In this document: positions 1 through 20,881 of the stretch, piece after piece
Position numbering within the stretch: the stretch's first letter is position 1
Layout of the letters: every line of letters starts with the position of its first letter
DNA from: Deltaproteobacteria bacterium
Lineage (GTDB): Bacteria > Bdellovibrionota > FAC87 > UBA2466
NCBI GenBank assembly: GCA_900299195.1
Contig: OMIX01000067.1
Location: 1 to 38,960 of the forward strand
Reading direction: 5' to 3'
DNA: 38,960 bases
Position numbers and translations under genes: made by a program
The notes under the pieces: generated by a model
Told to the model about the DNA's origin: nothing
The model's database searches: none
The model's input: the letters and a program-made list of their open reading frames with translations, nothing else

Positions 1-41
1 CTAAGCCTTCGTCGGCAGCGTCAGATGTGTATAAGAGACAG
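1..41. other. Illumina Nextera adapter and i5 index (artefact)
   Basis: Bases 1-8 read CTAAGCCT, which is the Nextera i5 index S508/N508. Bases 9-22 read TCGTCGGCAGCGTC and bases 23-41 read AGATGTGTATAAGAGACAG, which together are the Nextera read-1 transposase adapter with its 19-base mosaic end. This is library-preparation sequence left on the contig end, not genome. Read on the minus strand it adds the false C-terminus LSLIHI to the neighbouring reading frame. Confidence 0.97.
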
Positions 42-525
42 GTGGGCTTTTTCTCCTATTTTACCAAGAGCCTGAGCTGCACTTATTCGAACAGCCCGAT
101 CTGTGTCTTTTAAGGCCGTGATTAAATCAGGTACCGCTTTTTCTCCTATTTGAACAAGAGCCTGAGCTGCACTGCTTCGAACCCAATCCTTTGTGTCTTT
201 TAAGGCCGTGATTAAATCAGGAACCGCTGCGTGGGCTTTTTCTCCTATTTGACCAATAGCTTGAGCTGCACTTTCTCGAACAAACTGATCTGTGTCTTTT
301 AAGGCCTTGATTAAATCAGGAACCGCTTTTTCTCCTATTTGACCAAGAGCCTGAGCTGCACTTCTTCGAACCCAATCCTTTGTGTCTTTTAAGGCCGTGA
401 TTAAGTCAGGAACCGCTGCGTGGGCTTTTTCTCCTATTTTACCAAGAGCCTGAGCTGCACTTCTTCGAACTAAACTCTCTTGGTCTTTTAAGGCCTTGAT
501 TAAGTCAGGAACCGCTGCGTGAGCC
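42..525. repeat. Tandem 189-bp higher-order HEAT repeat
   Basis: The motif GTGGGCTTTTTCTCCTAT begins at 42, 231 and 420, giving an exact 189-base period (63 codons). Each 189-base unit holds two HEAT units of 99 and 90 bases. The high DNA identity between units points to recent duplication and probably explains why the assembly breaks here. Confidence 0.85.
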
Positions 526-2312
526 TGCTCTTTTTCGGTCGCCAGGTGATTGATAGCTTTTACGCGCATTTCGGGGGTGTTGTTGTTTTTAGCATTTCGA
601 ATAACCCTTAACATAAAAGGAAGTTTGTTTTTGTCGTTGAGAAATTTGAGTGCAGAGTCAAACTCTTCGATCGTGCTGGGGTCGGGATGATTCATTAGGC
701 ACTCACCCGGCAGTTGCAGGTGTTGTGGTAGTTTATTGTAGGGGATTTGAGTTATTAACTGTCGGTAAAGTTGCTCATGCTTAGGGATTTGTGAGAACGC
801 TAACTCAAAAAGAGGTTTACTGTCTAATTGTCTGCTATCTCCTTCATAAACAGTCTTCAGTGCTTCTTTGATATCACTAGGTGCAAACTCTAAAGCTAGA
901 GTTTTGATGACAGAACTTTGTTCTAAAGACTGAGACTGCAAATCATCTAAGATAAGAATTAAATCGAGCTGTGTTAATTTATTCTCTTGAAACTGCGTTA
1001 TGGCATTTCGTGCTCTTTTTTTAAGCGATTCTTCATGTGATGCGCCAAAGTCTTTATTCCATTGCTCAAAAAGACTCTTATTTGTAGAAAGCTCCTTCTT
1101 AACTACGTTTCTTGGGGTTTGAGGCTCAGGATGGCATGTCCACTGCTTTGAGCCTATTACAGCTAAAATGGCTGCTGCATCTTTAGGGGGATGAAATAAG
1201 GCACGGTTATCACTTTGAGACTCGGGAAAATCGATATTCTCTTCAATGAGCTTAGTATCTTGATTCGGTAGTTGAGAAAGAAGCTCTTGAATCCTAGTGT
1301 ATTTCTTCTTTGAGAGATCTTGAAATAAATTTGCTAACCGTATTGAATCGGGGCTGTTATTCAGGCGCAATACAAGTGCATTTTCTTGTTCTAGGCCTAA
1401 ATCGCCTAATGCCCTAATTTCACGAGGGGAAACTATCCCCAGAGGAGCAAGGTGAGTGATGAGCGATTTTACTTTGGGCTGCTTAGTTTGAGAAAACCTT
1501 AAAAGCTCGCAATCGGTAAACTCAACCTGATACTGCGCTTTTATTTGCTCTCTTATCTTCTTTTTAATGTCATCTGGCATTAACAGCACAAGCCGTAAGT
1601 ACCTTTGTTTCTGTTCCTTATCTGTGGAAAAAGCCAATGCTAAAAGAGCTTGAATCGAAGGCGTCTGCTTGCTCTCCTTGAGTTTCTGGCTAATATCATT
1701 TTTTGCTTTTTCATCTTTGCAGTTTTCAAGAAACTCTTTCACTCTTTCTGGGGCCGTTTCTAAAAATGCTTTTGCAATACGACACGATTGTGATGGGCTT
1801 GGCTTTTTATTGCCTAAGTGGTGCAGTAAATGTTCAGCATAATAATAACAAACAGGGCTAGGGTTTTGTACGCACTTATTTAGCTGTAGTGATAAAAGAA
1901 ACTCCTTTTTCTCTTTATGATTCATTCCATGAGCGTGAATGAGCCTTTTATCTAATAACTTAAAAACATCTTCCTCAGTCAATGAGTCCTCAGAAATAAG
2001 GTCTGCCAACTTTTCTTTCCACGTCTGAAGCTCTTTAGCTTTTTGCTCTTCGCTTGGGTTCTCACTCTCAAGCTTCTGATCAGTTTCCCGAATCACTTTA
2101 TCGTCTTTGCAGGACCACCTAAAATCTTGAGAGCCGCCAACTAAAGACTGATTCTCGTTGGTTGCAGTAGGGTTAATCTCATGCACTTCCCCATTTGAAG
2201 ACTTAGGCCTTTTCCCACCTGTGGACTCATCACTATGCTCACCCATGCTTAATGAAGAAGCAATTAATAGAAGGCAACATAAAGCTTTGATTTTTCTTTG
2301 CTTCTTCATCAT
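42..2312 (-). CDS. Exported HEAT-repeat protein, 3' end missing
   Basis: The protein starts [19 protein letters not shown], a basic then hydrophobic stretch that looks like a Sec signal peptide ending near residue 24, so it is probably exported. Residues of about 30-590 are hydrophilic, helix-prone and rich in Lys, Glu, Gln and Leu; I recognise no domain there. From about residue 595 come five HEAT / PBS-lyase-like repeats, each carrying AVPDLI-ALKD and [13 protein letters not shown]-like cores, alternating 33 and 30 residues. Such repeats form a superhelical scaffold for protein binding. The frame runs without a stop into the adapter at bases 1-41, so the true C-terminus is unknown and the last six residues of the open frame (LSLIHI) are artificial. 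It stands alone and no partner is evident. Function unknown. Confidence 0.8.
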
Positions 2313-7597: not shown

Positions 7598-8275
7598 TTA
7601 CTGATAAACCGGTGTAGGAGCGTAAAAATTAAGTACGTCGACAAACGGCTTCATTACGGGCGGGACTAGAACTCCTGGGGTCGAAAGAATTTCGCCCGGA
7701 GTTAAATATCTTCCATAAACCAAACCATTTCGCTCTTCACCGTGAGTCATCACAGTACCGTTCAAAGAAAATCCGGCATAAAGACCCGTGCCTGCCGAAT
7801 AGACCCAAATATTAGACATAGGAGCCACGTTAGTTCCCACACCTTCTCCAAAGGGTCCCACTGCAATGCTCAAATCTCCTCCAAGAGTTAAACTCCCTCG
7901 GTTCAACATTTGACGAGAAAATGGTGTCATGAATAATAGAACATTGTCTACGACCTGACCGCCAATTAAGAGTCCAAAACTCACACCGCCAGAATTGATA
8001 AAAGAAGGAGCGCTCCATCCGCCATTCAATCGACAACTCACTAATCCAGTGCTGCCTTCTCCTCCAAAAATAAACCCTGCTTTAACGTTTCTCATAACAC
8101 CGATACATTGAGCTTGATCCAACAAATACCGGGGAATGGGATTTCGTGACATCATACGCTCAACCAACACTTGTCGGCTGATTCCCACTCTTCGCTCAAT
8201 ATTGAAAGCTTGGGCGCTACTAACGATAAGACTTGATAGGATGACTAAGTGACTGAATAATTTAGAGAAGTTCAT
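7598..8275 (-). CDS. SYLF/YSC84-domain lipid-binding protein, exported
   Basis: About 225 residues. The chosen ATG at 8275 gives MNFSKLFSHLVILSSLIVSSAQA, a typical signal peptide cut after AQA. A longer frame from 8362 would cross the promoter described at 8310-8338 and bury the signal peptide. The rest is an SYLF (Ysc84) domain: QCIGVMRNVKAGFIFGGEGS, then SAPSFINSGGVSFGLLIGGQ and the Gly-rich GDLSIAVGPFGEG. SYLF domains bind phosphoinositides in eukaryotes. In bacteria they are found in exported or lipoprotein forms of mostly unknown role, often linked to envelope lipids or stress. The gene is monocistronic, with its own promoter, leader inverted repeat and terminator. Confidence 0.85.
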   Translation of the reverse strand: MNFSKLFSHLVILSSLIVSSAQAFNIERRVGISRQVLVERMMSRNPIPRYLLDQAQCIGVMRNVKAGFIFGGEGSTGLVSCRLNGGWSAPSFINSGGVSFGLLIGGQVVDNVLLFMTPFSRQMLNRGSLTLGGDLSIAVGPFGEGVGTNVAPMSNIWVYSAGTGLYAGFSLNGTVMTHGEERNGLVYGRYLTPGEILSTPGVLVPPVMKPFVDVLNFYAPTPVYQ

Positions 8276-8284
8276 AACACCTTT

Positions 8285-8306
8285 CGGAAATGCAGTTAAA
8301 TTTCCG
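8285..8306. promoter_or_regulatory. Inverted repeat at SYLF transcription start
   Basis: CGGAAAT at 8285-8291 and ATTTCCG at 8300-8306 form a perfect 7-8-7 inverted repeat. It lies just downstream of the -10 at 8310-8315, over the expected start site and directly before the ribosome site. The position suits a repressor operator or a short 5' hairpin. Confidence 0.5.
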
Positions 8307-8309
8307 ATA

Positions 8310-8338
8310 GTTATATCTTTATTGTCACTGTGCGGCAA
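8310..8338 (-). promoter_or_regulatory. Sigma-70-type promoter of the SYLF gene
   Basis: On the minus strand TTGCCG (8338-8333) is separated by 17 bases from TATAAC (8315-8310). The -35 matches the consensus at four positions and the -10 at five, with ideal spacing. It predicts a start near 8303 and a leader of about 28 bases. Confidence 0.55.
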
Positions 8339-8405
8339 GTTTATTTTTAAGGCGAATGGCAAGCTTCAAAGGCCCCGATTTTAGGCCATTTCCAAAGAAG
8401 GGTGA

Positions 8406-9773
8406 TTATCGAATCCCAAGCTCTTTCATCTTTAGCTGTAACCCCTTGCGGCTGATGTTCAGCTTTCTTGCTGCTTGGGTCACATTGTTTTGAGTTTCTA
8501 TCAGAGCCTCTTCAATCGCTTTTTTCTCAATTCTTCGAGTGGCATCTTTGACCAATTCTTTCAAAGAGCCTCCAGAGGCCGCTTGCCGCTCGACAAACTT
8601 TTGTTCTTCGAACTCTAAAATTTCCTCTGGCAAGTGTTCCGGAATGACAGGTCCCCCCTCGTTTAAAACCATCACCCTCTCAATGACGTTCTCAAGTTGT
8701 CTGATATTGCCGGGCCAGGGGTACTGTATCAAAAGCTCTAATGTTTCAGGTTGCATGACTGGAGGTGTTTTTTTCATCCGGTCACTCATCTTCTGAAGAA
8801 AAAAAGCGACAAGCTTAGGAATGTCCTCAGGACGCTCACGAAGGGGCGGAAGTTCTAACGGAACTACATTCAGTCGATAAAATAGATCGTTTCGAAATCG
8901 TCCCTCTCGAACCTCTTTTTCCAAATCCCGGTTAGTAGCAGCAATCAGTCTCACATCCACCTGGAGAGTTCTTAACCCTCCCACCCTCTCAAAAGATTTT
9001 TCCTGTAATACTCTGAGTAGCTTCACCTGCATCTCAACGCTCATCTCCCCAATTTCATCCAGAAACAAAGTTCCTTTGTCTGCTAATTCGAACCTTCCCG
9101 GTTTTGCACTCATAGCTCCGGTAAACGCCCCTCTCTCGTGTCCAAACAGTTCACTCTCCATCAGATTTTCTGGAATCGCGGCGCAGTTAATTTTTATAAA
9201 CGGCCCCTTAGCCCGTGAACTTCGTTCATGAATGGCAGCTGCGATCAATTCTTTTCCCGTGCCACTCTCTCCTAATATAAGCACAGTCGAGTCACTCGCA
9301 GCCACTTTATCAAGCATCCCGTAAAGCTTTAACATCTTTGGAGTCTCACCAATCATAGGGTGTTCGCTCTCTGAAGCTTTCCAGTTTTTTAATTCCTCAT
9401 TTTGAAACCGGTGAGACAAAACCGCTTTTTTTATCACCCTCACAAGTTCATTACGGTCAAACGGTTTACTGAGATAATCAAAGGCTCCCTGTTTCATGGC
9501 ATCGACGGCAGAATCGATCGTTCCATGGGCGGTCAAAATAATAACTGGGATTGAAGGGTATTCTTCTTTCACCCATTTCAATAATTGAACCCCATCTTCC
9601 CGTACCAACCGGAGATCGGAAAGAACAGCCTGTATCTTTTGATGACGAATTTTATCTTTGGCTTCAGCTATAGAAGCCACCGCATGAACCAAATACCCTT
9701 CAGCTTTTAACATCGCAGCTAAAATCTTACGAATATTGAGTTCATCATCTAAAACTAATACTTCGCTACTCAT
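8406..9773 (-). CDS. Sigma-54-dependent NtrC-family response regulator
   Basis: 455 residues in the classic three-part layout. A receiver domain (about 1-120) has the acidic pair in VLVLDDE, the phospho-acceptor Asp in VLSDLRL at about 53, Thr in ILTAHGT and Lys in SKPFD. A sigma-54 AAA+ domain (about 138-370) has Walker A GESGTGKE, the intact sigma-54 contact loop GAFTGA, Walker B LFLDEIGE and the arginine-finger region. A Fis-type helix-turn-helix closes the protein (TQAARKLNISRKGLQLKMKELG). Phosphorylated protein should drive transcription by RNA polymerase with sigma-54. Its start overlaps the stop of the upstream sensor kinase by ATGA, so the two form a two-component pair. Target genes are not evident in the window. 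Confidence 0.95.
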   Translation of the reverse strand: MSSEVLVLDDELNIRKILAAMLKAEGYLVHAVASIAEAKDKIRHQKIQAVLSDLRLVREDGVQLLKWVKEEYPSIPVIILTAHGTIDSAVDAMKQGAFDYLSKPFDRNELVRVIKKAVLSHRFQNEELKNWKASESEHPMIGETPKMLKLYGMLDKVAASDSTVLILGESGTGKELIAAAIHERSSRAKGPFIKINCAAIPENLMESELFGHERGAFTGAMSAKPGRFELADKGTLFLDEIGEMSVEMQVKLLRVLQEKSFERVGGLRTLQVDVRLIAATNRDLEKEVREGRFRNDLFYRLNVVPLELPPLRERPEDIPKLVAFFLQKMSDRMKKTPPVMQPETLELLIQYPWPGNIRQLENVIERVMVLNEGGPVIPEHLPEEILEFEEQKFVERQAASGGSLKELVKDATRRIEKKAIEEALIETQNNVTQAARKLNISRKGLQLKMKELGIR

Positions 9774-11920
9774 AAAGACCTCTCCGGTAACCCATCCTCT
9801 TCCACAGGTTTTGTGGTTTGGGGCCGTTTAATGGGAAGATGCAAAACAAAAGTAGTTCCCACCCCTACTTTAGAGCGAACATTGATAGTCCCACCCATAG
9901 ATTCCACTAATCGTCGACAAATCGCAAGCCCAAGTCCGGTTCCTTTGTTTTTAGTCGTAAAAAACGGAACAAATAATCGCTTTTGGGTTTCAGAATCAAT
10001 GCCAGGCCCATTGTCTTTAACCTCAATCTCAATATGCTCCAAGGGAGAACTTATATTTTCGGTCTTCCAGCCCTCTAAGACTTTAAACAACGGCATCGAA
10101 TCCAACAGAAAAGCTCTTTTATTTTTCATGCGCTTTAATCGCACTTTCAGCATCGGTCTTTCGGTCGTTTCCATGGCTTGCACCGAGTTAAGAAAAAGAT
10201 TGAGCAAAATCTGTTTCAACACTTCAGGATCAGCTTCGATGTGAGGGTTTTTCTCCTCCGTTTCGATTTCAAACGCCACTTTTGAACCCTTTAAAGCCAT
10301 TTGAGCTGTGTGGTCGATCACCTGAATAGGATCGCAACTTCCATACGAATGAAACTTTCTGGGTTTGGCATAATCTAAAAACTCAGTCACCACATTCGAA
10401 AGCCGTTGAGTCTCATCCACAATGATTTGCAAAAACTCATTGGAAGAATGCGGCTCTTGTTCCTTCAACAATTCCGCGGCCCCCTTAATGGCTCCCAAGG
10501 GATTTTTAATCTCATGGGCAAGCCCCGCTGCCATCTCACCAAGTGCGGCCAATTTGTCGCGATCTTTTAAATGATCAAAAGTCTGCGCATTTTGAAGCAT
10601 GAACCCTAATTGCCTTGCCACTGGAATAAAAACGCGCATCTCTTCATTCGAAAGAATAATTCGCTCCCCGGCCCTCACAGCACAAAACGCAATGGGCTTG
10701 GAATCATAAACAATAGGGATGATAAAATCTGCCCCCAATGTTCGCATGGTTTCAAGACAGGTCTCACAAAATTTCTGGGCCGCTGCCGCCCTAAAAAAAT
10801 CGCGATCGGTCTCAATGTTCTCTAGGATGAAGGGGCGGCCTCTTCTAAGCGCCATATACTCAATCAAAGCATTGGAGGAGGATAATTCCTGAAAGTCTCC
10901 TTGATTGACTCCTACAATTTTTCGATAACTTAGGCCATCTTTTTCGAGCAAAAACAAACTGGCCGACTCCACCCCTAAACATCTTTTTAAAATACTTTGA
11001 ATCTGTTCTGCTATTTGAATAGGTTCGAATGTGCCCACCAAATTTTCAAGAAGTTCATTGAGCTCTTCTTCGAGCAACAAATGACGTCGAAGAAAAAGTT
11101 TTCTCGTCCCTCGAGTAATGACTCTTTTAAGAGGTTCAAAGAGAATCATAATCACAAACGAAGCAATAAAAGTATTAAAGTAGAAAAGTCCCGATTGGTT
11201 TCCTACCCAACTGACCAACGTGGAATAGATCAGAGTTAATACCAAGGCGATTCCACCTAGAAGAGTCAATTTGGTCAAAACCTCTTCCGAAGTCATCACC
11301 TCTTTTTGAATGAAGGTGTGAAAAATGAAAATGCTATACAATACTCTGGCTAAGGTTCCTAAGGGAGGGACCATTTCAAAGCCTGAGTAGTGAATGGCGT
11401 TTGTCACAAATAACGATAAAGCGGTCACTCCTCCCAAGGCCGCAAAATGCATTCTCAGTTTTTCTCGAGGAAGAGTCACTTCTCGACTGGCTTTGTCTAG
11501 CCCAAGAAGAAAAACCACAAAGGGAATTAAGAGGGCAAAGTGAGCCAAAAAATTAAAAGAGGTTTCATATTCTCGATAAGTGGGAAATGACATGAACAAT
11601 AAAACCACCGCTAAAAAGGGGAAGTAAAAGGCGATCCACTTGCCTAAAGCAAGGGTCTTAACCCCTAGAAGCTCTCTTGCGAACCAAAGAAGAGGTAATC
11701 CCACCAGAAGAGTCGCAAAACTATGCCAAGCCGGACTAAATAGAGCTTCATAAGCCGAAAATCCCTGCAAACTTCCTATGGAGTCATGCAGGGCCAGCGC
11801 AGCCATCAGGCCCGTAAAAGCCAAATTCAAACGACTTCTAAAATTGCGCAAGAGAGCGGCACTCCCCAGAGAGACAGAGACAAAGGCCGCTATAATTAAA
11901 CTCACTGTTTCAATTCGCAT
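9770..11920 (-). CDS. Membrane sensor histidine kinase with GAF domain
   Basis: About 716 residues from the ATG at 11920, which places the first membrane span right at the N-terminus. The frame also stays open to a GTG at 12031, which would add 37 mostly polar residues and has no ribosome site. Eight or nine hydrophobic spans are followed by a GAF-like region (about 310-460), a HisKA dimerisation helix with LAHEIKNPLG (His codon near base 10516), and a HATPase domain with LLNLFLNSVQAME, DNGPGI, the F-box FVPFFTTK and GTGLGLAICRRLVE. It should autophosphorylate at that His and pass phosphate to the NtrC-type regulator encoded immediately downstream with a four-base overlap. The multi-span sensor suggests a membrane or lipophilic signal, but the ligand is unknown. 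Confidence 0.92.
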   Translation of the reverse strand: MRIETVSLIIAAFVSVSLGSAALLRNFRSRLNLAFTGLMAALALHDSIGSLQGFSAYEALFSPAWHSFATLLVGLPLLWFARELLGVKTLALGKWIAFYFPFLAVVLLFMSFPTYREYETSFNFLAHFALLIPFVVFLLGLDKASREVTLPREKLRMHFAALGGVTALSLFVTNAIHYSGFEMVPPLGTLARVLYSIFIFHTFIQKEVMTSEEVLTKLTLLGGIALVLTLIYSTLVSWVGNQSGLFYFNTFIASFVIMILFEPLKRVITRGTRKLFLRRHLLLEEELNELLENLVGTFEPIQIAEQIQSILKRCLGVESASLFLLEKDGLSYRKIVGVNQGDFQELSSSNALIEYMALRRGRPFILENIETDRDFFRAAAAQKFCETCLETMRTLGADFIIPIVYDSKPIAFCAVRAGERIILSNEEMRVFIPVARQLGFMLQNAQTFDHLKDRDKLAALGEMAAGLAHEIKNPLGAIKGAAELLKEQEPHSSNEFLQIIVDETQRLSNVVTEFLDYAKPRKFHSYGSCDPIQVIDHTAQMALKGSKVAFEIETEEKNPHIEADPEVLKQILLNLFLNSVQAMETTERPMLKVRLKRMKNKRAFLLDSMPLFKVLEGWKTENISSPLEHIEIEVKDNGPGIDSETQKRLFVPFFTTKNKGTGLGLAICRRLVESMGGTINVRSKVGVGTTFVLHLPIKRPQTTKPVEEDGLPERSL

Positions 11921-12038
11921 CGTAACCCAGTGTACTAAACGGTTTAAAAGCAATCCATCTCTAACATGGTGAGCCTGAGTTAGCAAAAATTGCTGAGTTA
12001 GCTGTAACACAGACAGTCTAATTCCTGTCACGGAGCGT

Positions 12039-12067
12039 TTGAGTTATTCTTCTCTTTCCCTCATAAT
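12039..12067 (+). promoter_or_regulatory. Candidate sigma-70 promoter of the MinD-like operon
   Basis: TTGAGT at 12039-12044 and CATAAT at 12062-12067 are separated by exactly 17 bases. The predicted start near 12074 lies about 60 bases before the MinD-like gene, in the divergent gap shared with the sensor-kinase gene. Confidence 0.5.
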
Positions 12068-12136
12068 TAAGACATCACAATTCTGTTTTTCTTTCCTTTC
12101 ATTCACTCGTTGCATCATTGCTAAATTGGGGTTCCC

Positions 12137-13141
12137 TTGGGACTTTTTAAAAGAAATCTGTTTGGGTCACCTGTTACCAATAACAGCTCTTCTTCAGTGA
12201 ATATCGCCAATCGTAATCTTTCGGTAGTTCAACAGCCCACTAAGACCATTTGGGCCATCGGCGGAGGAAAGGGCGGCATTGGAAAAACCTTGCTCACTTC
12301 AAACATCGCGGTTTTTTTAAGCTGGCTCAACAAAAAAGTGGTTGTAATCGACATGGATTTGGGTGGCGCTAATCTTCACACCAGTTTAGGAGTGAATAAT
12401 CCCGCTCATACGCTTAGCGACCTTCTCTACAATCGAATCGAAAATCCCAACGAACTTTTGCAAGCCACCCACTTCAGAAATCTTTCTCTCATTTCTGGAG
12501 CCCATGATCCTACGGGGATTGCTAACATGCCCCACGTTCAAAAAGCCCGCTTGGCTCGAAAATTCAAAGAAATTGAAGCAGACTATATTCTCCTCGATCT
12601 CGGCGCAGGGACTACCCACAACACCTTGGATTTTTTCCTTCTAGCAGATAAGAAAATTATTGTCGTAACTCCAGAGCCCACCAGCATAGAAAATGCCTAC
12701 CGTTTTATTAAAGCTGCCTTTTACCGAATGCTTCGAGCCTCCACCCCCACTCCTTACGTCAGGCAACTGATCGAACAAGCGATGGACGAAAAAAATCACA
12801 AAGGGATCTCTTCTCCTAAAGATCTTTTGAATGAAGTAGCTCGGCTTTCTCCGGCTGAAGGGGAAGACCTAAAAAACAAAATGCAATCCTTTATGTTCAG
12901 TTTGATCGTCAATCAAGTTCGGGCTAAAACCGAAGGGGATATTGGAAAGTCGGTTCAAATCGTCTGTGAAAGATATTTTGGAATCCACGTTGATTATACC
13001 GGTTTTATTCCCTATGATAATTCGGTCTGGCAATCGATAAGAAAGCGAGTTCCTTTTCTCATCGATTCCCCCAACAGCACAGCGGTTACTCATTTAGAGG
13101 ACGTTTTAAGGAACTTACTAAAAACATCACCGAGTAAATAA
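12137..13141 (+). CDS. MinD/FlhG-like ParA-family ATPase
   Basis: 334 residues. A polar N-terminus of about 35 residues precedes a deviant Walker A motif, GGGKGGIGKTLLTSN, followed by VVVIDMDLGGANLHTSLG (the Walker A' region) and YILLDLGAGTTHNTLDF. VVTPEPTSIENAYRFIKAAF is typical of the FlhG/YlxH-type MinD subgroup. Such ATPases dimerise on ATP and position membrane or polar structures, for example flagella, division sites or protein complexes. The start is TTG at 12137 with GGGG a few bases upstream; no ATG is available before the Walker A motif, although a GTG at 12197 is possible. It is followed five bases later by the J-like/HTH gene, a pairing I associate with delta-type bacteria. No flagellar genes are nearby, so calling it FlhG would be premature. 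Confidence 0.85.
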   Translation: MGLFKRNLFGSPVTNNSSSSVNIANRNLSVVQQPTKTIWAIGGGKGGIGKTLLTSNIAVFLSWLNKKVVVIDMDLGGANLHTSLGVNNPAHTLSDLLYNRIENPNELLQATHFRNLSLISGAHDPTGIANMPHVQKARLARKFKEIEADYILLDLGAGTTHNTLDFFLLADKKIIVVTPEPTSIENAYRFIKAAFYRMLRASTPTPYVRQLIEQAMDEKNHKGISSPKDLLNEVARLSPAEGEDLKNKMQSFMFSLIVNQVRAKTEGDIGKSVQIVCERYFGIHVDYTGFIPYDNSVWQSIRKRVPFLIDSPNSTAVTHLEDVLRNLLKTSPSK

Positions 13142-13146
13142 TCGTT

Positions 13147-13827
13147 ATGTCGAAAACCAACTCTGAAGAATCTTATTATCAACTGCTACGAGTTTCCCCC
13201 AAAGCCAGCGTATCGGAAATTACTTCGGCTTACCTTTCCGCAAAAAATGCTTTTTCTAAAGACTCTATTGCTACCTATTCTTTGATGGCTGCCGAAGATA
13301 CTACGGATATTTTGTCTCAATTGGAAACCGCCTACATGACCTTGACCAATCCAGACAAACGTCGTGATTACGACAAGAGATTAAACTCCGCGGAAATTGT
13401 AAATCTGGAAGTCGCAAGACCGAACCCAGAAAGCCAAATTTCTCAAGAAACTAATAAAAAAGCTCAGCAGACACCCGTATTTGAATCGGCTCCCGTCGTC
13501 GCCAATTCAAATTTATCCGAGAGTCATTCTTTTGATAAAGACACAGGATCGGATGCCCCCTTGAATCATTTAAACACAGGTGAATTTAACTTAAGTCAGA
13601 TCAGGGAATCTAAAGGACTCACTTTGACAGACGTGTCTCGAATTACCAAGATACCTGTCAAATACCTTAAAGCACTTGAAGAACGAGACAAAGCTAATCT
13701 ACCCGCCAAAGTCTATATCCAAGGCTTTTTAAAAAACCTAGCTCAACTTTATCGACTTGATCCTAAAACTGCTGTATCTCAATACCTCATGCAATTAGAA
13801 CAAACCTCAGGACCCACTTCCCCTTGA
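13147..13827 (+). CDS. J-like domain protein with RodZ-like HTH
   Basis: 226 residues. Residues 6-78 resemble a J domain: ESYYQLLRVSPKASVSEITSAY at the start and AYMTLTNPDKRRDYDKRL at the end are the usual flanking helices. The HPD tripeptide needed to stimulate DnaK ATPase is absent; the loop reads AFSKDS. A polar linker (about 80-140) leads to a RodZ-type HTH_25 domain, LSQIRESKGLTLTDVSRITK with PVKYLKALEERD and GFLKNLAQLYRLDP. There is no membrane span after the HTH, unlike true RodZ. It lies directly after the MinD-like ATPase gene and its stop overlaps the rluD start (TTGA). A scaffold or adaptor role with the MinD-like ATPase is an inference; DnaK co-chaperone activity is unlikely. Confidence 0.78.
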   Translation: MSKTNSEESYYQLLRVSPKASVSEITSAYLSAKNAFSKDSIATYSLMAAEDTTDILSQLETAYMTLTNPDKRRDYDKRLNSAEIVNLEVARPNPESQISQETNKKAQQTPVFESAPVVANSNLSESHSFDKDTGSDAPLNHLNTGEFNLSQIRESKGLTLTDVSRITKIPVKYLKALEERDKANLPAKVYIQGFLKNLAQLYRLDPKTAVSQYLMQLEQTSGPTSP

Positions 13828-14783
13828 ATGTGAATGAGTTTCTTGTCATTTTAGAGATCCGAATAGACTCTTTTCTTTCGGAAAAAACTGGCAAAAGTCG
13901 CTCTTTTGTCCAAGAGCAAATCAAAAGCTCAAGGGTGAAAATCAATGGAGAGATTTGTCTTAAGCCGAGCCATCGTTTAAAAGCCAATGATGTCGTCAGT
14001 TTTGAATGGAAGGAGGAGACCTCTCTCGCTCATCTTACTCCTACCCCGGGCACATTAAATATTGTGTTCGAAGATGAATATCTACTAGCTCTTAATAAAT
14101 CGGCTGGGGTCATTGTTCATCCAGGCGCAGGGAGAAAAGACGACACCCTAGTCCACCATTTGCTTCACTACCTAAACCACACCCCATTTAATACCCTTTC
14201 CTCGGAACGACCAGGTATCGTTCATCGATTAGATGAAGGGACTACAGGAGTTCTCTTAGTTGCGAAAACGGAAGAAACTCAAGTGTTACTTTCAAATATG
14301 TTCAAAAATCGGTCGATCAAGAAAACTTATCGGGCCATCACTTATGGGAAAATGCATTTATCCGGAACATTCAATTCTCCTATTGGTCGAGACCGTCGAG
14401 ACCGAAAAAAGATGAGTTCTCGAAGTCAAAACGCTCGACCCGCCTCAACCCCATGGAAAGCATTGGAAAGGTTTCAGCATTTTACTTATGTGGAACTCTA
14501 TCCCACTACAGGAAGAACCCACCAACTCAGGGTCCATTTGTCAGAGGCCCAGTTTCCGATTGTAGGGGATCCCACTTATGGTAAACCCAAAATGAAAGCT
14601 AGCTTGATTTCCAGTAAAGTGGGTGAACAGATTTCCCAAATGGACCATACGTTACTCCATGCTTATTCGGTCGAGTTTGAACACCCTCACACTCACAAGG
14701 TTCTTAGTTTAACCGCCCCATTGCCGGAGGATTTTGCAGCTTTTCTTCACCTGCTCAAACAAGAGGATCCATGCCAGCCCTAA
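13824..14783 (+). CDS. rluD: 23S rRNA pseudouridine synthase, RluD type
   Basis: 319 residues. An N-terminal S4 RNA-binding domain (about 15-65, with SRSFVQEQIKSSRVKINGE) precedes a RluA-family catalytic domain. The catalytic Asp lies in RPGIVHRLDEGTTGVLLVAK at about residue 136. GRTHQLRVHLSEAQFPIVGDPTYG is the conserved C-terminal block. It isomerises specific uridines, for RluD those in helix 69 of 23S rRNA, during large-subunit maturation. The start is TTG at 13824, whose last two bases are the first two of the TGA of the upstream gene; a GTG two codons later is the alternative. Neither has a strong ribosome site, so re-initiation is likely. RluC/RluA specificity cannot be fully excluded, but the S4 domain and length fit RluD. 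Confidence 0.88.
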   Translation: MNVNEFLVILEIRIDSFLSEKTGKSRSFVQEQIKSSRVKINGEICLKPSHRLKANDVVSFEWKEETSLAHLTPTPGTLNIVFEDEYLLALNKSAGVIVHPGAGRKDDTLVHHLLHYLNHTPFNTLSSERPGIVHRLDEGTTGVLLVAKTEETQVLLSNMFKNRSIKKTYRAITYGKMHLSGTFNSPIGRDRRDRKKMSSRSQNARPASTPWKALERFQHFTYVELYPTTGRTHQLRVHLSEAQFPIVGDPTYGKPKMKASLISSKVGEQISQMDHTLLHAYSVEFEHPHTHKVLSLTAPLPEDFAAFLHLLKQEDPCQP

Positions 14784-15397
14784 ATCACATCAGCTATGAT
14801 TTTGAGGTCGAACCTAAGGGACTCACTCGCCCTTTATATAAACAGGTCCACGGGAATGCTCTTATTCAAGTGACCGAATCTCTACTTCCGGCACTCTATC
14901 AAAACCCGCCTCAAGCTGATGGAGCCATTACCTCAGTATCTCAGTTGAAACTTTCTGTTTTTACTGCAGACTGTTTACCACTTCTATTTTTTACTGAAGA
15001 CCCTAAGGGCCCTATCGCTGCCATCCACTGTGGCTGGAGAGGAGCTCTACAATCCATTACAAGCCCCATCGAAGATCTCTGGTCTGATTATCACAATCAG
15101 ATTCATGTGATCTTAGGCCCCTGTCTCCAACCTTGCTGTTTTGAGGTTAAAACCGATCTTATTGAAACTTTTACTCAGGCAGGTCACGCCATCGACCCTT
15201 ATCTCGAAAGCCGAGGCGATCGACTCTTTTTTAATATGAGTGGTTTTGTCATAGAGCAACAGCTCCCATTTATTAAGCCAGCCCACATTCACACTGAACA
15301 CTTACGCTGTACTTTTTGTTCCCAACCGGAATTGCCCTCTTATCGAAGAAACAAAGGCACCGACCCCAGAATTAGAGGCTGGATTATCAAAAGTTGA
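14771..15397 (+). CDS. pgeF: PgeF/YfiH multicopper-oxidase-like protein
   Basis: 208 residues of the YfiH/LACC1 family. Metal-ligand and active-site motifs are visible: KQVHG near residue 26, TADCLPLLFF at about 64-73, HCGWRGAL at about 86-93, and ILGPCLQPCCFEV at about 113-125. Family members are reported to act as peptidoglycan editing factor, removing wrongly placed L-Ser from wall precursors, and as purine nucleoside phosphorylases or adenosine deaminases. Its ATG lies inside the end of rluD, 13 bases of overlap, with a GAGG ribosome site in rluD. The rluD-pgeF pair is conserved across many bacteria. The stop TGA directly abuts the stop of the convergent rimI gene. Confidence 0.9.
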   Translation: MPALNHISYDFEVEPKGLTRPLYKQVHGNALIQVTESLLPALYQNPPQADGAITSVSQLKLSVFTADCLPLLFFTEDPKGPIAAIHCGWRGALQSITSPIEDLWSDYHNQIHVILGPCLQPCCFEVKTDLIETFTQAGHAIDPYLESRGDRLFFNMSGFVIEQQLPFIKPAHIHTEHLRCTFCSQPELPSYRRNKGTDPRIRGWIIKS

Positions 15398-15880
15398 TTA
15401 TTTGGTCCGTTTCATGACAAGGGCATCCCGCTTTCCCTCGTAGTATTTCTTCCTAACCCCGTAGGCCTTAAACCCAAAAGACTCATAAAATTGAATGGCG
15501 GGACTGTTTTCAGTGTCCACTTCAAGAAAAGCCTGTTTCACTTGGGGCAGCTCCCAAGCAGTCTCTAGGAGTGTTTTTGCTATATTTTTTCTTCGATATT
15601 CAGGGCTGACCGCAATGGAAATAACATCCATTTCTCCTTGAACAAGAAGAGTGAGAAGAAAACCTACCATTTGTTTTTGAGAAACGACGCCCAGACAAAG
15701 CCCCGAGAGATGCTTTATAAAATATTCGTATTCGCTGTCTTTCCAGACCTTAGGAAAAGACTTCTCAGCGATTTGCCTTATTTTTTCAATGTCGGGCGAA
15801 TCAAGCTGCCGAATTTCAATCTCTACCCGTTGTCCAGCAACATCGAGACTTCGTATTTGTCTTTTAAAGATTTGATCCAT
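15398..15880 (-). CDS. rimI: GNAT acetyltransferase, RimI-like
   Basis: 160 residues of the GNAT fold. The acetyl-CoA binding region reads ISIAVSPEYRRKNIAKTLL (about 88-107). The usual Gly of the R-x-x-G-x-A signature is Asn here. FLEVDTENSPAIQFYESFGF (about 119-138) is the RimI-like C-terminal block. RimI acetylates the N-terminus of ribosomal protein S18, though many RimI-like proteins have other targets, so the specific name is moderate. The start ATG at 15880 lies 58 bases inside the upstream SurA-like gene; no other start codon fits before the GNAT core. It is the last gene of the glpX-led unit and abuts pgeF tail to tail with no spacer. Confidence 0.8.
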   Translation of the reverse strand: MDQIFKRQIRSLDVAGQRVEIEIRQLDSPDIEKIRQIAEKSFPKVWKDSEYEYFIKHLSGLCLGVVSQKQMVGFLLTLLVQGEMDVISIAVSPEYRRKNIAKTLLETAWELPQVKQAFLEVDTENSPAIQFYESFGFKAYGVRKKYYEGKRDALVMKRTK

Positions 15881-16461
15881 TCTTCAAGATTTTTCTGAAC
15901 CGCCTGTTTTTTTAACAAGACGATAATATTAGGCTTAATGCTTTCAAAGCTTTTTCCCCGAAATTGAGCTTCATTTCTCTTAAAATACTTTTGAGACTCT
16001 TCCTCGGTGATCACCGGGGTCACTGTCTCTATTTTTAATTGCACAAACCTGTCGGCAGCCAACGTATTAGCCATTTTCCTTGAAATATCCTGTTCGGTCA
16101 GGCCATATTTCTTTTTAACTGCTTCGAGAGCCCCCCCTCTCTGACCGCTAATCCACTTAGCAACTTCGGATTGAACATTGAACTCTTTTCCCAAGTTCTT
16201 CATTTCGGCTATCACCATCTCTTCAAAAACGATTTTCTGTACCGTTTTCCTTAGGTCGTCGCCCTCTTCTTCGAGAAGCACGGGCTGCATCCCTGTTTTA
16301 GCCCGCTGCAATGCTCGATAAACAAAAGCGTCCTGAATGCTGATCACTTTTTTATTGATGATGGCCGCAGTTCCATTCACCCACTTAGAGGAGTTTTCCC
16401 CAAAGGAACCTGGTGGAAGAAAAATAAGAAACAGCCCAAAGAGTATTAACTTTTTGATCAT
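15823..16461 (-). CDS. SurA-like periplasmic chaperone without PPIase domain
   Basis: About 212 residues. MIKKLILFGLFLIFLPPGSFG is a signal peptide. The mature part begins VNGTAAIINKKVISIQDAF, the standard opening of SurA/PpiD-type N-domains, and continues as a helical chaperone fold. A short C-terminal helix (IVLLKKQAVQKNLEEWIKSLKDKYEV) also matches the SurA ending. No parvulin PPIase domain is present, and the length is about half that of SurA. A role in guarding outer-membrane or periplasmic proteins is a reasonable inference. The ATG at 16461 shares its A with the last base of the ridA stop (TGATG); a TTG one codon earlier is possible. The end overlaps rimI by 58 bases. Confidence 0.75.
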   Translation of the reverse strand: MIKKLILFGLFLIFLPPGSFGENSSKWVNGTAAIINKKVISIQDAFVYRALQRAKTGMQPVLLEEEGDDLRKTVQKIVFEEMVIAEMKNLGKEFNVQSEVAKWISGQRGGALEAVKKKYGLTEQDISRKMANTLAADRFVQLKIETVTPVITEEESQKYFKRNEAQFRGKSFESIKPNIIVLLKKQAVQKNLEEWIKSLKDKYEVSMLLDNG

Positions 16462-16844
16462 CAAGCCAAAACCGCGATGGCCTCGATTTCAACCCGAACG
16501 TCTTTCGGAAGTTTTCCGACTTCCACAGTAGCTCTTGCCGGATAGGGGCTTTTCATGAACTTTGCATACACTTCGTTAAAACGAGGAAACTCTGCCATTT
16601 CAGTAATAAACACAGTCGTCTTGACTACATGCTCAAATCCAAGGTTTTGAGAAGCTAAAATGGCCTGAAGATTTTTCATCACCTGTTCCGTTTGCTCCTC
16701 AATAGTTTTTCCCACCACAACACCTGTCTTAGGATCTAAAGGGATTTGCCCTGAAACAAATAGAAATCCGTTAGCTTTTACCCCTTGAGAATAAGGGCCA
16801 ATCGCCTGAGGGGCATCGAGAGTTGAAATCACTTCCTTTTTCAT
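16461..16844 (-). CDS. ridA: RidA-family enamine/imine deaminase
   Basis: 127 residues, normal for RidA (YjgF/YER057c/UK114). The opening APQAIGPYSQGVKANGFLFVSGQIPLDP and the end PARATVEVGKLPKDVRVEIEAIA are diagnostic, and the active-site Arg lies in PARATVEV. It hydrolyses reactive 2-aminoacrylate and related imines formed by PLP enzymes such as threonine and serine dehydratases, sparing other PLP enzymes. The protein is cytosolic and trimeric in the family. It overlaps the upstream unknown gene by ATGA and the SurA-like gene by one base, so it sits inside a long coupled unit with unrelated neighbours. Confidence 0.95.
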   Translation of the reverse strand: MKKEVISTLDAPQAIGPYSQGVKANGFLFVSGQIPLDPKTGVVVGKTIEEQTEQVMKNLQAILASQNLGFEHVVKTTVFITEMAEFPRFNEVYAKFMKSPYPARATVEVGKLPKDVRVEIEAIAVLA

Positions 16845-17194
16845 TCGGCATCCTTTCGTTCAAAGGAAATTTGAACATTGATTTTGTGTTTTTCCATAAA
16901 TTTTGTAATTTCTTGAGAAATATCAATTTTGGCTAAAACTCTGCCAAACTCTTTGGCCAATAACCCGTAAAAATCGTCCTTCTTTTTTCCTATACTTTCA
17001 AGTACCAGCCCAACCAACTCTTTAGGTAATTTTTTATCTTTTAAATAAGAACGAACAGAATCCTCTGTCATAAAGATGGTAGCAAGCCCAGTGAGCGTCA
17101 TTTCTTTCATGACTTCACTCCACCAGGGTTTTTCACCACTTTTTTCGTTACCTTTTAACTCTGAGCTATCTTCATTTTCATTTTCGGGTGCCAT
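16841..17194 (-). CDS. Conserved-looking small cytosolic protein, unknown
   Basis: 117 residues, no signal peptide or membrane span. An acidic, low-complexity head (MAPENENEDSSELKGNEK) is followed by a helix-prone body: MKEMTLTGLATIFMTEDSVRS, LPKELVGLVLESIGKKKDDF, and EFGRVLAKIDISQEITKFME. The pattern of amphipathic helices resembles phasin-like or scaffold proteins, but I do not recognise a family and give no function. A good ribosome site (AAAGG) lies before the ATG. It is placed between an SRPBCC-domain gene (16-base gap) and ridA (ATGA overlap). Confidence 0.75.
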   Translation of the reverse strand: MAPENENEDSSELKGNEKSGEKPWWSEVMKEMTLTGLATIFMTEDSVRSYLKDKKLPKELVGLVLESIGKKKDDFYGLLAKEFGRVLAKIDISQEITKFMEKHKINVQISFERKDAE

Positions 17195-17210
17195 TTCTTA
17201 GCCTTTCTTT

Positions 17211-17645
17211 TTACTTAGCCAACTCCTTAGCTCGCACTTCAAAACTCTCAAACATTTTAGGCAGATTCACTTCGGTTAGTTTTTTTGCTATCCACGAGGG
17301 GACCATAAAAACGACGGCTACATCGAGCTCGTAATGAACCTCAGTCTCATTATTCCCTTTTTCTTTTAAGACCCACCTGCCCTCATTCTTTTTAAAAAAA
17401 TCGCTGTCGACAAGTTTCCATTTCACTTCTTCAGAACCCTTCAATTGAAATTCCAAAGTATAAACGAACTTTTTGACGACCTCGATTTCAAATTGCACAT
17501 GGACTTTGTCTGGGCTAGGGCGTTTGATAATTTTAGCCCCGGTCACTTCGTTTAAAAACTCAGGGTATTTTTCGAATTCAGTAATAGCAGAAAAGAGCGC
17601 TCGCTGAGAAACGCTCATCCTCTTATCTCTAACAACTTCAGCCAT
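17211..17645 (-). CDS. SRPBCC / Coq10-like lipid-binding protein
   Basis: About 144 residues. The pattern VSQRALFSAITEFEKYPEFLNEV near the start, then WKLVDSDFFKKNEGRWVLKE and ETEVHYELDVAVVFMVPSWI, is typical of the START/Bet v 1-like polyketide-cyclase family that includes Coq10 and RatA. These bind hydrophobic ligands in a deep pocket. I chose the ATG at 17645, four bases after the glpX stop and behind a GGTGG ribosome site; the open frame reaches 17678, but that part lies within glpX. The ligand is unknown. A ubiquinone or menaquinone role would be a guess. Confidence 0.82.
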   Translation of the reverse strand: MAEVVRDKRMSVSQRALFSAITEFEKYPEFLNEVTGAKIIKRPSPDKVHVQFEIEVVKKFVYTLEFQLKGSEEVKWKLVDSDFFKKNEGRWVLKEKGNNETEVHYELDVAVVFMVPSWIAKKLTEVNLPKMFESFEVRAKELAK

Positions 17646-17649
17646 AATT

Positions 17650-18609
17650 TCACCACCCGTAACGAGGTTTATGATCAAATAAATGCTTGGTTTTAATTTC
17701 CCGAATGGTCATGGTCTCAGACCTCATCACGATGGAATGCGTGTGAGCTCCTCCTCCAAAATAACGGACGCCATTTAGATAACTTCCGTTGGTAATACCG
17801 GTCGCGATAAACATCACATTGCCTTTAGCTAATTCTTCGATGCCGTACACTTTATTCTCATCGGTAATGCCCATCGCTTTGGCTCGAGATCGCTCAGAGT
17901 CATTTCTAAATTTTAAAACACCCTGCATATCTCCGCCTAGGCACTTAAGCGCCGCAGCGGCTATCACACCTTCCGGAGCGCCTCCAATTCCCATGAGAGC
18001 ATCAATCCCTGTTTCTTCCTGAGCCGCTGCTATCGCTGCAGACACATCTCCATCGCCTATCAAACGGATACGGCACCCGGCCTCCCTCACCTCTGCGATG
18101 AGATCAGCGTGTCGGGGCCTGTCTAAAATAATAATCATTAAATCTTGAACACTCTTGCCTGTAGCCTTTGAAATTTCTTTTACGTTCCATGTTGGGCTTT
18201 TTCTAATATCAACAGCCCCTTTGGCAGCTCGCCCTACCGCTATTTTGTCCATGTAGGTATCAGGAGCGTGTAAAAAATTACCCTCTTCAGCCGCTGCAAT
18301 CACAGATAAAGCCTCACTGCGCCCCAAAGCCGTAATCGTGGTTCCTTCAAGGGGGTCGCAAGCGATATCGATGTTAGGCCCTTCTCCGCCCCCTACATTT
18401 TCTCCGATATACAACATAGGAGCCTCATCCCGCTCCCCTTCACCAATCTTTATCGTTCCGCAAAACCTAATAGAATCAAAAGCTTTTCTCATGGATTCTA
18501 CCGCTGCGTGATCAGCCGCTTTTTCATCCCCACGTCCAATCCAACGGCCTACACTTAAGGCCGCCGCCTCAGTCACTCTGACAAATTCTAAAGCTAGGTT
18601 TCTATCCAT
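17650..18609 (-). CDS. glpX: Class II fructose-1,6-bisphosphatase
   Basis: 319 residues, typical of GlpX. Visible metal and substrate motifs are GTIKIGEGERDEAPMLYIGE (about 51-70), DIACDPLEGTTITA (about 80-93), and GIGGAPEGVIAAAALKCLGG near 208-227. It hydrolyses fructose 1,6-bisphosphate to fructose 6-phosphate, the key gluconeogenic step, using Mn or Mg in the cytoplasm. The start ATG at 18609 has a strong GGAGG site six bases upstream. It leads a unit running on through the SRPBCC gene to rimI. A 26-base hairpin in its leader (18664-18689) may regulate it. Confidence 0.95.
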   Translation of the reverse strand: MDRNLALEFVRVTEAAALSVGRWIGRGDEKAADHAAVESMRKAFDSIRFCGTIKIGEGERDEAPMLYIGENVGGGEGPNIDIACDPLEGTTITALGRSEALSVIAAAEEGNFLHAPDTYMDKIAVGRAAKGAVDIRKSPTWNVKEISKATGKSVQDLMIIILDRPRHADLIAEVREAGCRIRLIGDGDVSAAIAAAQEETGIDALMGIGGAPEGVIAAAALKCLGGDMQGVLKFRNDSERSRAKAMGITDENKVYGIEELAKGNVMFIATGITNGSYLNGVRYFGGGAHTHSIVMRSETMTIREIKTKHLFDHKPRYGW

Positions 18610-18663
18610 GGAACCTCCAAATGTTTAAGGCAGAAAGGTACCATAGAAATGTTTAAAGGGAAA

Positions 18664-18689
18664 TGGCGCCCGACCTAAGTCGAGCGCCA
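18664..18689 (-). promoter_or_regulatory. Hairpin in glpX leader
   Basis: Bases 18664-18674 and 18679-18689 can pair as 11 base pairs around a four-base loop. In minus-strand RNA, the glpX leader, every position pairs and the only irregular pair is a G-U wobble. In plus-strand RNA the same position is a C-A mismatch. No T-run follows on either strand, so it does not look like a simple terminator. It ends 55 bases before the glpX start. Confidence 0.5.
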
Positions 18690-18793
18690 CTTATTTGGGA
18701 GGGAAAAGGAAGATTGTTTCCTTTACCTAAAACCAATAACGTTTTCTCGCAGAGTGTTGTGACATATCAAAATAGCTCATTTAGAGTCCCTCT

Positions 18794-19177
18794 ATGGATT
18801 CTGAAGTTGATAAGGACCTGAAAGAGCTTTTTAGAGATCGTTTGAAAGACAAACGCCAAAGTAAGAGCAAAAGAAGATTAAAGGGAGAAGCCGCCCCCCA
18901 ATCTATCTCCGGCATACTGCCCACTTACTTTAAACAAAGTCCAGACACTCTTAAGAAGATTGATGAAACCCGAGCGCTCATCGCTTGGGAAAAATATGTA
19001 GGAGAGGCAGTCGCAACTCAATCCCAGGCCGTCAAAATTCGCTCCGGAACTTTGACCGTTAAAGTCACTAGCCCGCTTTGGATGCAGCAATTACTTCTGC
19101 TCAAAGAAAGAATTTTAAAACATTATCGAAAAGATTTTCCGCAACTTAGAATCAATAACATTTTTTTTACGCGTTAG
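18794..19177 (+). CDS. DUF721 / DciA-like protein
   Basis: 127 residues. The N-terminal third is highly basic (DRLKDKRQSKSKRRLKG). The rest matches the DUF721 pattern: IAWEKYVGEAVATQSQAVKI, then GTLTVKVTSPLWMQQLLLLK and a short LRINNIFFTR ending. DciA proteins of this family load or assist the replicative helicase DnaB in bacteria lacking DnaC/DnaI, and their domain is KH-like. The gene stands alone on the plus strand and its end overlaps dut by 11 bases tail to tail. I see no clear ribosome site or promoter. The DciA role is inferred from family membership, not from context. Confidence 0.8.
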   Translation: MDSEVDKDLKELFRDRLKDKRQSKSKRRLKGEAAPQSISGILPTYFKQSPDTLKKIDETRALIAWEKYVGEAVATQSQAVKIRSGTLTVKVTSPLWMQQLLLLKERILKHYRKDFPQLRINNIFFTR

Positions 19178-19619
19178 TGTTAGCAACTCCAGTGCTGCCA
19201 AAACCGCCTGCTCCTCTTGCAGTTTCAGCCAATCCGTCCACTTCCACCCATTCCATCTGGTCCACTTTCTGAATAACCCATTGTGCGATTCTGTCCTGCG
19301 GAGCAATTTCAACTGCCTCTTTTCCAAGATTTATGACGAGAATCTTCACTTCGCCACGGTAGTCGCTATCGATGGTGCCAGGGGCATTAACGACTGTGAG
19401 TCCTTTTTTAAAGGCTAACCCACTTCGAGGTCTCACCTGAACTTCATAGCCCTCGGGAATCTCTACACTTAAACCGGTGGGGACAGCGAATCTCTCACCG
19501 GGCTCAAGAATTAAAGAACTTTCTAAACAGGCATTCACATCGCAACCCGCAGCACCCGTGGTCATGTAAGAAGGAATCACAGCTTTTGGATTTAGTTTTT
19601 TAATTTTGACTGGAATCAT
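19167..19619 (-). CDS. dut: dUTP diphosphatase
   Basis: 150 residues, the normal trimeric dUTPase length. All five motifs are visible: AAGCDVNAC, RPRSGLAFKKG, NAPGTIDSDYRGEV (with the catalytic Asp), RIAQWVI, and RGAGGFGSTG at the C-terminus. It hydrolyses dUTP to dUMP, keeping uracil out of DNA and supplying dTMP synthesis. Its start overlaps the stop of the M16 peptidase gene by four bases, and the pair follows pnp. Its stop lies inside the end of the convergent DciA-like gene. Confidence 0.96.
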   Translation of the reverse strand: MIPVKIKKLNPKAVIPSYMTTGAAGCDVNACLESSLILEPGERFAVPTGLSVEIPEGYEVQVRPRSGLAFKKGLTVVNAPGTIDSDYRGEVKILVINLGKEAVEIAPQDRIAQWVIQKVDQMEWVEVDGLAETARGAGGFGSTGVANTNA

Positions 19620-20881
19620 AAAAATAACGATACCTTTCTTTGTTTCGGTTTGACTCGAGAGAGAGTGATAACCGATTCTTTTTCTTCTTTAAAGAATTGT
19701 TTAGCCATGTTTTGCACTCGATCTATGCTTACTTTTTCGATTTCAGCAACTATTTCTTCCGTTGAGATGTGACGCCCAAAATAAATTTCATTGCGCCCTA
19801 AGCTTTCCTGCCGAGCTTCGACCGATTCGGAAGCCAGAATAATGGAGCCTTTGATCTGACTTTTGATTCGTTCTAGCGCAGAAACCGAAATAGGTTCCGA
19901 GGCAACGCGCTGAACTTCACGAGACAAAATCGAAAGACACTTGCCCAAGGTCTTGGGCGCCAAAGCTAAATAGAAAGAAAATAAGCCGGCCTCTGAGAAA
20001 GGAATGAAATCACACTCCACCGTGTAAGCTAAACCGGCTTTTTCACGAATCTCTTGAAACAATCGGCTGCTCATTCCTCCACCTAAATAGAAATTCAATA
20101 CCAAAGCATCAAATCTAGCAGAATCATGAAGCGTTACCCCATCAAATCCCACCATCAAATGAAGCTGGTCAGTCGGAACCACCGCTTTCTTATGAACTCC
20201 ATGATAGGTCACCGATCTTTTGAGCTCCTTTTTATGAAAAGCTCTATCAGAGGCTCTAAATAACGTTTCACATTGCTCGATCATTTCCGGGATATTGATA
20301 TTACCCGCAACACTAATCACCATATTTTTAGGATGATAATATTGATCAAAGAACTTAAGCGCTGTACTTCGATTGAACGAATCGATCGTGGCTTTCGACC
20401 CAATCACAGGCTGGCCCAGAGGCTGATCTTTCCAAACACTCCTAAAAAACAGATCGTAGATTTTGTCGTCGGGCGATTCCTCAATCATCGACAATTCCTG
20501 AAGAAGCACTTTCTTCTCAAGATCAATTTCGTTTTTTGGAAATTGCGGGCTTAGTGTCAAATCACTCAGGACTTCGATAGCAATCGGAGCATGTTCGCTT
20601 AGAACCGTGGCATGGTAACAAGTGACTTCACGATCAGTGAAGGCATTAAGCTCTCCACCCAGGCATTCTAAAACGGTAGCTATCTCTAAGCCGGTTCGTT
20701 TCGAAGTGCCCTTGAACACCATATGCTCAAGAAAATGGCTCACCCCATTGAGATTTTTGGGTTCCGATCCACTGCCGATCTTTACCCATACTCCCATAGA
20801 AACCGACCTCATGTGGTCGTTCTTCTCTAAAACTAGAGTGGCGCCGTTTTCAAGCAGAACCTTTTCATACTGAGACGGCAT
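19616..20881 (-). CDS. M16-family zinc peptidase
   Basis: 421 residues, matching single-unit processing-protease-type M16B peptidases. The inverted zinc motif HFLEH (HxxEH) lies at about residues 49-53 within NGVSHFLEHMVFKGT, and the third-ligand region follows near QELSMIEESPDD. A second domain carries the GGGMSSRLFQEIREKAGLAY block typical of the family. It lacks a signal peptide and is probably cytosolic. Its substrate is unknown; family members clear peptides or process exported proteins. It sits 49 bases after pnp and overlaps dut by four bases. Confidence 0.92.
   Translation of the reverse strand: MPSQYEKVLLENGATLVLEKNDHMRSVSMGVWVKIGSGSEPKNLNGVSHFLEHMVFKGTSKRTGLEIATVLECLGGELNAFTDREVTCYHATVLSEHAPIAIEVLSDLTLSPQFPKNEIDLEKKVLLQELSMIEESPDDKIYDLFFRSVWKDQPLGQPVIGSKATIDSFNRSTALKFFDQYYHPKNMVISVAGNINIPEMIEQCETLFRASDRAFHKKELKRSVTYHGVHKKAVVPTDQLHLMVGFDGVTLHDSARFDALVLNFYLGGGMSSRLFQEIREKAGLAYTVECDFIPFSEAGLFSFYLALAPKTLGKCLSILSREVQRVASEPISVSALERIKSQIKGSIILASESVEARQESLGRNEIYFGRHISTEEIVAEIEKVSIDRVQNMAKQFFKEEKESVITLSRVKPKQRKVSLFL

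Follow-up and report, generated by a model that had tools for sequence, protein, structure and literature searches.

The window analysed here, a stretch of 38,960 nucleotides, is the whole of contig C67, one of the 128 contigs of a 2.83-Mb draft genome, and its left end raises the question of whether the first 41 bases are bacterial DNA at all. These bases read CTAAGCCT TCGTCGGCAGCGTC AGATGTGTATAAGAGACAG and were found to be identical at every base to the inner part of the S508 oligo followed by the Tn5 mosaic end. In a published oligo list, S508 is given as AATGATACGGCGACCACCGAGATCTACAC-CTAAGCCT-TCGTCGGCAGCGTC, that is, P5-CTAAGCCT-TCGTCGGCAGCGTC (PMC7757419). Because all 41 bases match published oligo sequence exactly, they are almost certainly an untrimmed Illumina library adapter of the Nextera XT type, an ordinary assembly artefact and not bacterial DNA.

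The 41 bases at the left end of the contig

Three non-genomic parts follow one another on the forward strand. The i5 index S508 (CTAAGCCT) occupies bases 1-8. The 14-base outer part of the Nextera read-1 transposase adapter (TCGTCGGCAGCGTC) occupies bases 9-22, as a single exact copy in the window, and the Tn5 mosaic end, the synthetic 19-mer AGATGTGTATAAGAGACAG, occupies bases 23-41. The mosaic end also occurred once in the window, and 100 shuffles gave 0 matches to it, even at 3 mismatches. The first-pass annotation had placed the S508 index at bases 1-8 and the read-1 adapter, down to the mosaic end, at bases 9-41; both the index and the coordinates were correct (PMC7757419). It had also claimed that sequence outside the insert was assembled, and the presence of the S508 index and adapter at the contig end bears this out. 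The boundary between adapter and genomic sequence is sharp at 41/42, and from base 42 onward the sequence is in register with a 189-bp repeat unit at 231-419, to which it is 93% identical.

The mosaic end is a synthetic hybrid related to the ends of IS50, and this relationship speaks for a natural Tn5 or IS50 element end in the chromosome. However, the exact 19-mer is neither the inside nor the outside end of natural IS50, index and P5 or P7 sequence adjoin the mosaic end, and all copies in the genome lie at contig ends. Beside the mosaic end we found no transposase gene or insertion sequence body; the contig ends 22 bases beyond it, and those 22 bases are index and adapter. The chance that a natural element end is present is negligible, and the index and flow-cell oligo adjoining the mosaic end led us to reject this candidate. 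No Rfam family was detected in the window.

Adapters across the draft genome

The exact 19-base mosaic end occurred in 16 copies on 16 contigs, and a reversed control pattern gave 0 copies. For all 16 of the 16 copies the distance to a contig end was at most about 75 bases and the adapter pointed outward, with genomic sequence only on the mosaic-end side of the adapter and the contig end on the other. End zones of 75 bp make up about 0.68% of the genome, and the probability of finding 16 of 16 copies there by chance is about 2e-35. The i5-side adapter was found on seven contigs (C7, C67, C72, C76, C83, C109 and C120) and the i7-side adapter on nine (C5, C10, C31, C50, C84, C85, C92, C104 and C107, with C10 judged by two bases only). 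A laboratory transposon insertion of the EZ-Tn5 type in the sequenced strain would bear the same mosaic end, but the 16 copies found here carry sequencing adapters without any transposon body, some of the i5 side and some of the i7 side, and we regard such an insertion as having next to no probability.

Counting contig ends with at least 11 mosaic-end bases added three ends, on C65, C90 and C113, which carry a partial mosaic end of 14-16 bases. At least 16 contig ends, and probably 19, are affected. Thus, beyond C67, the same untrimmed Nextera adapters were seen on 15 other contig ends and three truncated ones.

The index sequences point to a single source. The i5 index was CTAAGCCT (S508) at six of the six i5 ends that reach the index, and the i7 index was TCCTCTAC (N712) at six of the six i7 ends that do so, with no other index on either side. 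N712 stands in the same oligo list as P7-TCCTCTAC-GTCTCGTGGGCTCGG (PMC7757419). C72, C83 and C109 contain the whole P5 oligo together with one to three extra T bases (TTTAATGATACGG...), and a complete P7 oligo is present on C50. The extra T bases would fit reads that ran off the end of the template. Since S508 is widely used and was found in many other genomes, the tail might be thought to come from reads of another pooled sample, through index hopping or carry-over; yet one i5 and one i7 index are common to all index-bearing ends of the genome, and the sequence from base 42 onward keeps the register of the HEAT repeats of C67 itself, which makes this origin very improbable. The adapters stem from one dual-indexed library in which short-insert reads were left untrimmed, and the artefact is genome-wide, on both the i5 (S508) and i7 (N712) sides, which goes beyond what a single window could show.

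How could the adapter have entered the assembly? Turner (2014) described NexteraXT inserts shorter than the read, in which reads continue past the insert and from which de novo assembly can suffer (PMC3906532). Likewise, some inserts of the present library would have been shorter than the read, so that reads passed beyond the insert and on into the opposite adapter, the index and the flow-cell oligo, and the assembler may have kept the adapter tail at places of thin coverage or of an ambiguous true path. In the draft the marks of read-through were found together, namely exact mosaic ends with read-1 or read-2 adapter, a position at contig ends and a single index pair throughout the assembly. 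As in the published read-through (PMC3906532), the library's own adapter and index follow the insert, whereas in the present draft the assembly retained such tails at many contig ends. Short-insert read-through, whose read-level step we infer, accounts for all observations at C67 and at the other ends. The 41 bases offer nothing new; the artefact is an ordinary one and holds no new biology.

The false tail of the HEAT-repeat gene and similar tails in public records

On the reverse strand, an open frame at 21-2312 would be called as a protein of 763 residues that ends in LSLIHI followed by a stop. The LSLIHI residues correspond to bases 24-41 and the TGA stop to bases 21-23, and the last real residue is His757. 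Both stretches are adapter, and therefore the entire false tail at 21-41, six residues and a stop, is adapter-derived. The remainder of the frame (42-2312, reverse strand) is a real but 3'-truncated HEAT-repeat protein gene of 757 genuine residues, with Pfam matches to HEAT_2 (E 5.7e-41), HEAT and HEAT_PBS, and the HEAT_2 repeats extend to near the real end. The earlier claim of a false LSLIHI C-terminus on a HEAT-repeat protein was thus confirmed. False tails were also seen on other contigs, such as that of a 439-residue frame on C7, which ends in adapter-coded residues. At the opposite end of the HEAT-repeat frame (2241-2312) the protein starts with a lysine-rich segment followed by a hydrophobic stretch, which resembles a signal peptide, and from this N-terminus we suppose that the protein may be exported.

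The contig breaks within a tandem HEAT repeat array at 42-531, with units spaced at about 90/99 bp and up to 97% identical, and a similar array opens contig C59. Tandem repeat arrays are typical break points of short-read assemblies. The adapter tail at C67 would have been kept inside this array, so that the gene seems to end in LSLIHI, and the start of C59 most likely holds its true 3' part.

Similar tails were found well beyond this genome. The mosaic end was present in six of the 291 genomes sampled in the phylum, the source genome included. Two of these, G042 (14 copies) and G057 (11 copies), carry adapters at contig ends, each with its own consistent index pair, AGCGTAGC/GTAAGGAG and CATGCCTA/GTAAGGAG, respectively; both pairs differ from S508/N712. 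In a further genome (G040, contig C40), a Nextera i7-side adapter lies inside the contig and adjoins N bases, apparently a scaffold join across the adapter. Many GTDB genomes carry the exact S508 41-mer at a contig end (at least 120 matches), and each of the matches listed lay 36 bases or less from the edge of the retrieved stretch. None of 5,426 complete E. coli genomes contained the 33-base adapter; it was found in 26 records of phages and 8 of plasmids. Contaminated public genomes such as phage WFK, G042 and G057 resemble the present one: the adapter is found where contigs end or were joined, and some of them have annotated false peptides. In phage WFK (MK373775.1), the adapter gives QBQ77263.1, annotated as a tail fibre, a C-terminal LSLIHI, and an adapter-coded peptide is also present inside QBQ77264.1. 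Another public phage record, LR595870.1, has a P2-like terminase with adapter-coded residues in its C-terminus.

The first-pass annotation had called LSLIHI a known spurious peptide of protein databases, and this was borne out in part. At least one such tail has been deposited as real protein sequence, as QBQ77263.1 ends in adapter-coded LSLIHI, but we found no paper that describes the peptide as a database contaminant. The sole paper found with the string reports a designed Tn5-based insertion in CLN3 that starts with LSLIHI, an engineered transposon-end linker, which agrees with this reading of the mosaic end (PMC4106830). A literature search on the other two adapter frame peptides and on adapter contamination of databases returned nothing specific. 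The importance of the finding is confined to data hygiene: bases 1-41 should be trimmed from C67, and the adapter from the 18 further ends affected. Proteins that run off adapter-bearing ends have false tails (LSLIHI and the other adapter frame peptides), and a search for conserved C-termini can be misled by them.

The probable continuation on contig C59

If the C-terminus of the HEAT-repeat protein is false, where is the true one? The start of C59 (C59 1-608) encodes an in-frame HEAT segment of 201 residues, with diverged end units and a natural stop, which is 75% identical to the C67 array over the best stretch. In the congener G004, orthologues of the C67 genes at 7598-20881 (46-92% identical) reach about C20:43718, and the orthologue of the C59 aldehyde dehydrogenase (81%) starts at C20:43752, directly beside them. 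Because the order and orientation of genes in G004 are as expected if C59 follows the left end of C67, we consider C59 most likely to be the true neighbour of this end and to supply the 3' part that the HEAT-repeat gene lacks on C67, judging from sequence and gene order. The C59 segment would then be a plausible true C-terminus of the protein.

Several other comparisons were made. The two contigs have no exact suffix-prefix overlap of at least 12 bases. Among the congeners no orthologue of the HEAT protein was close enough to serve as a check on its true C-terminus. Placement of the left end of C67 through the LamB/YcsF gene failed, with only one, distant, congener homologue, and the parts of G003 and G002 that were read gave no placement through the C59 aldehyde dehydrogenase.

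In G004, the parts that flank the segments C67:1-7484 and C59:1-1994 adjoin each other. We lean towards the view that the two segments together form a lineage-specific insertion beside a conserved block, with a true HEAT array longer than the contig shows; alternatively, they may have been lost in G004. The genes in these two segments are the HEAT-repeat gene, LamB/YcsF and its neighbours, and genes resembling those for an MFS transporter and an acyltransferase.
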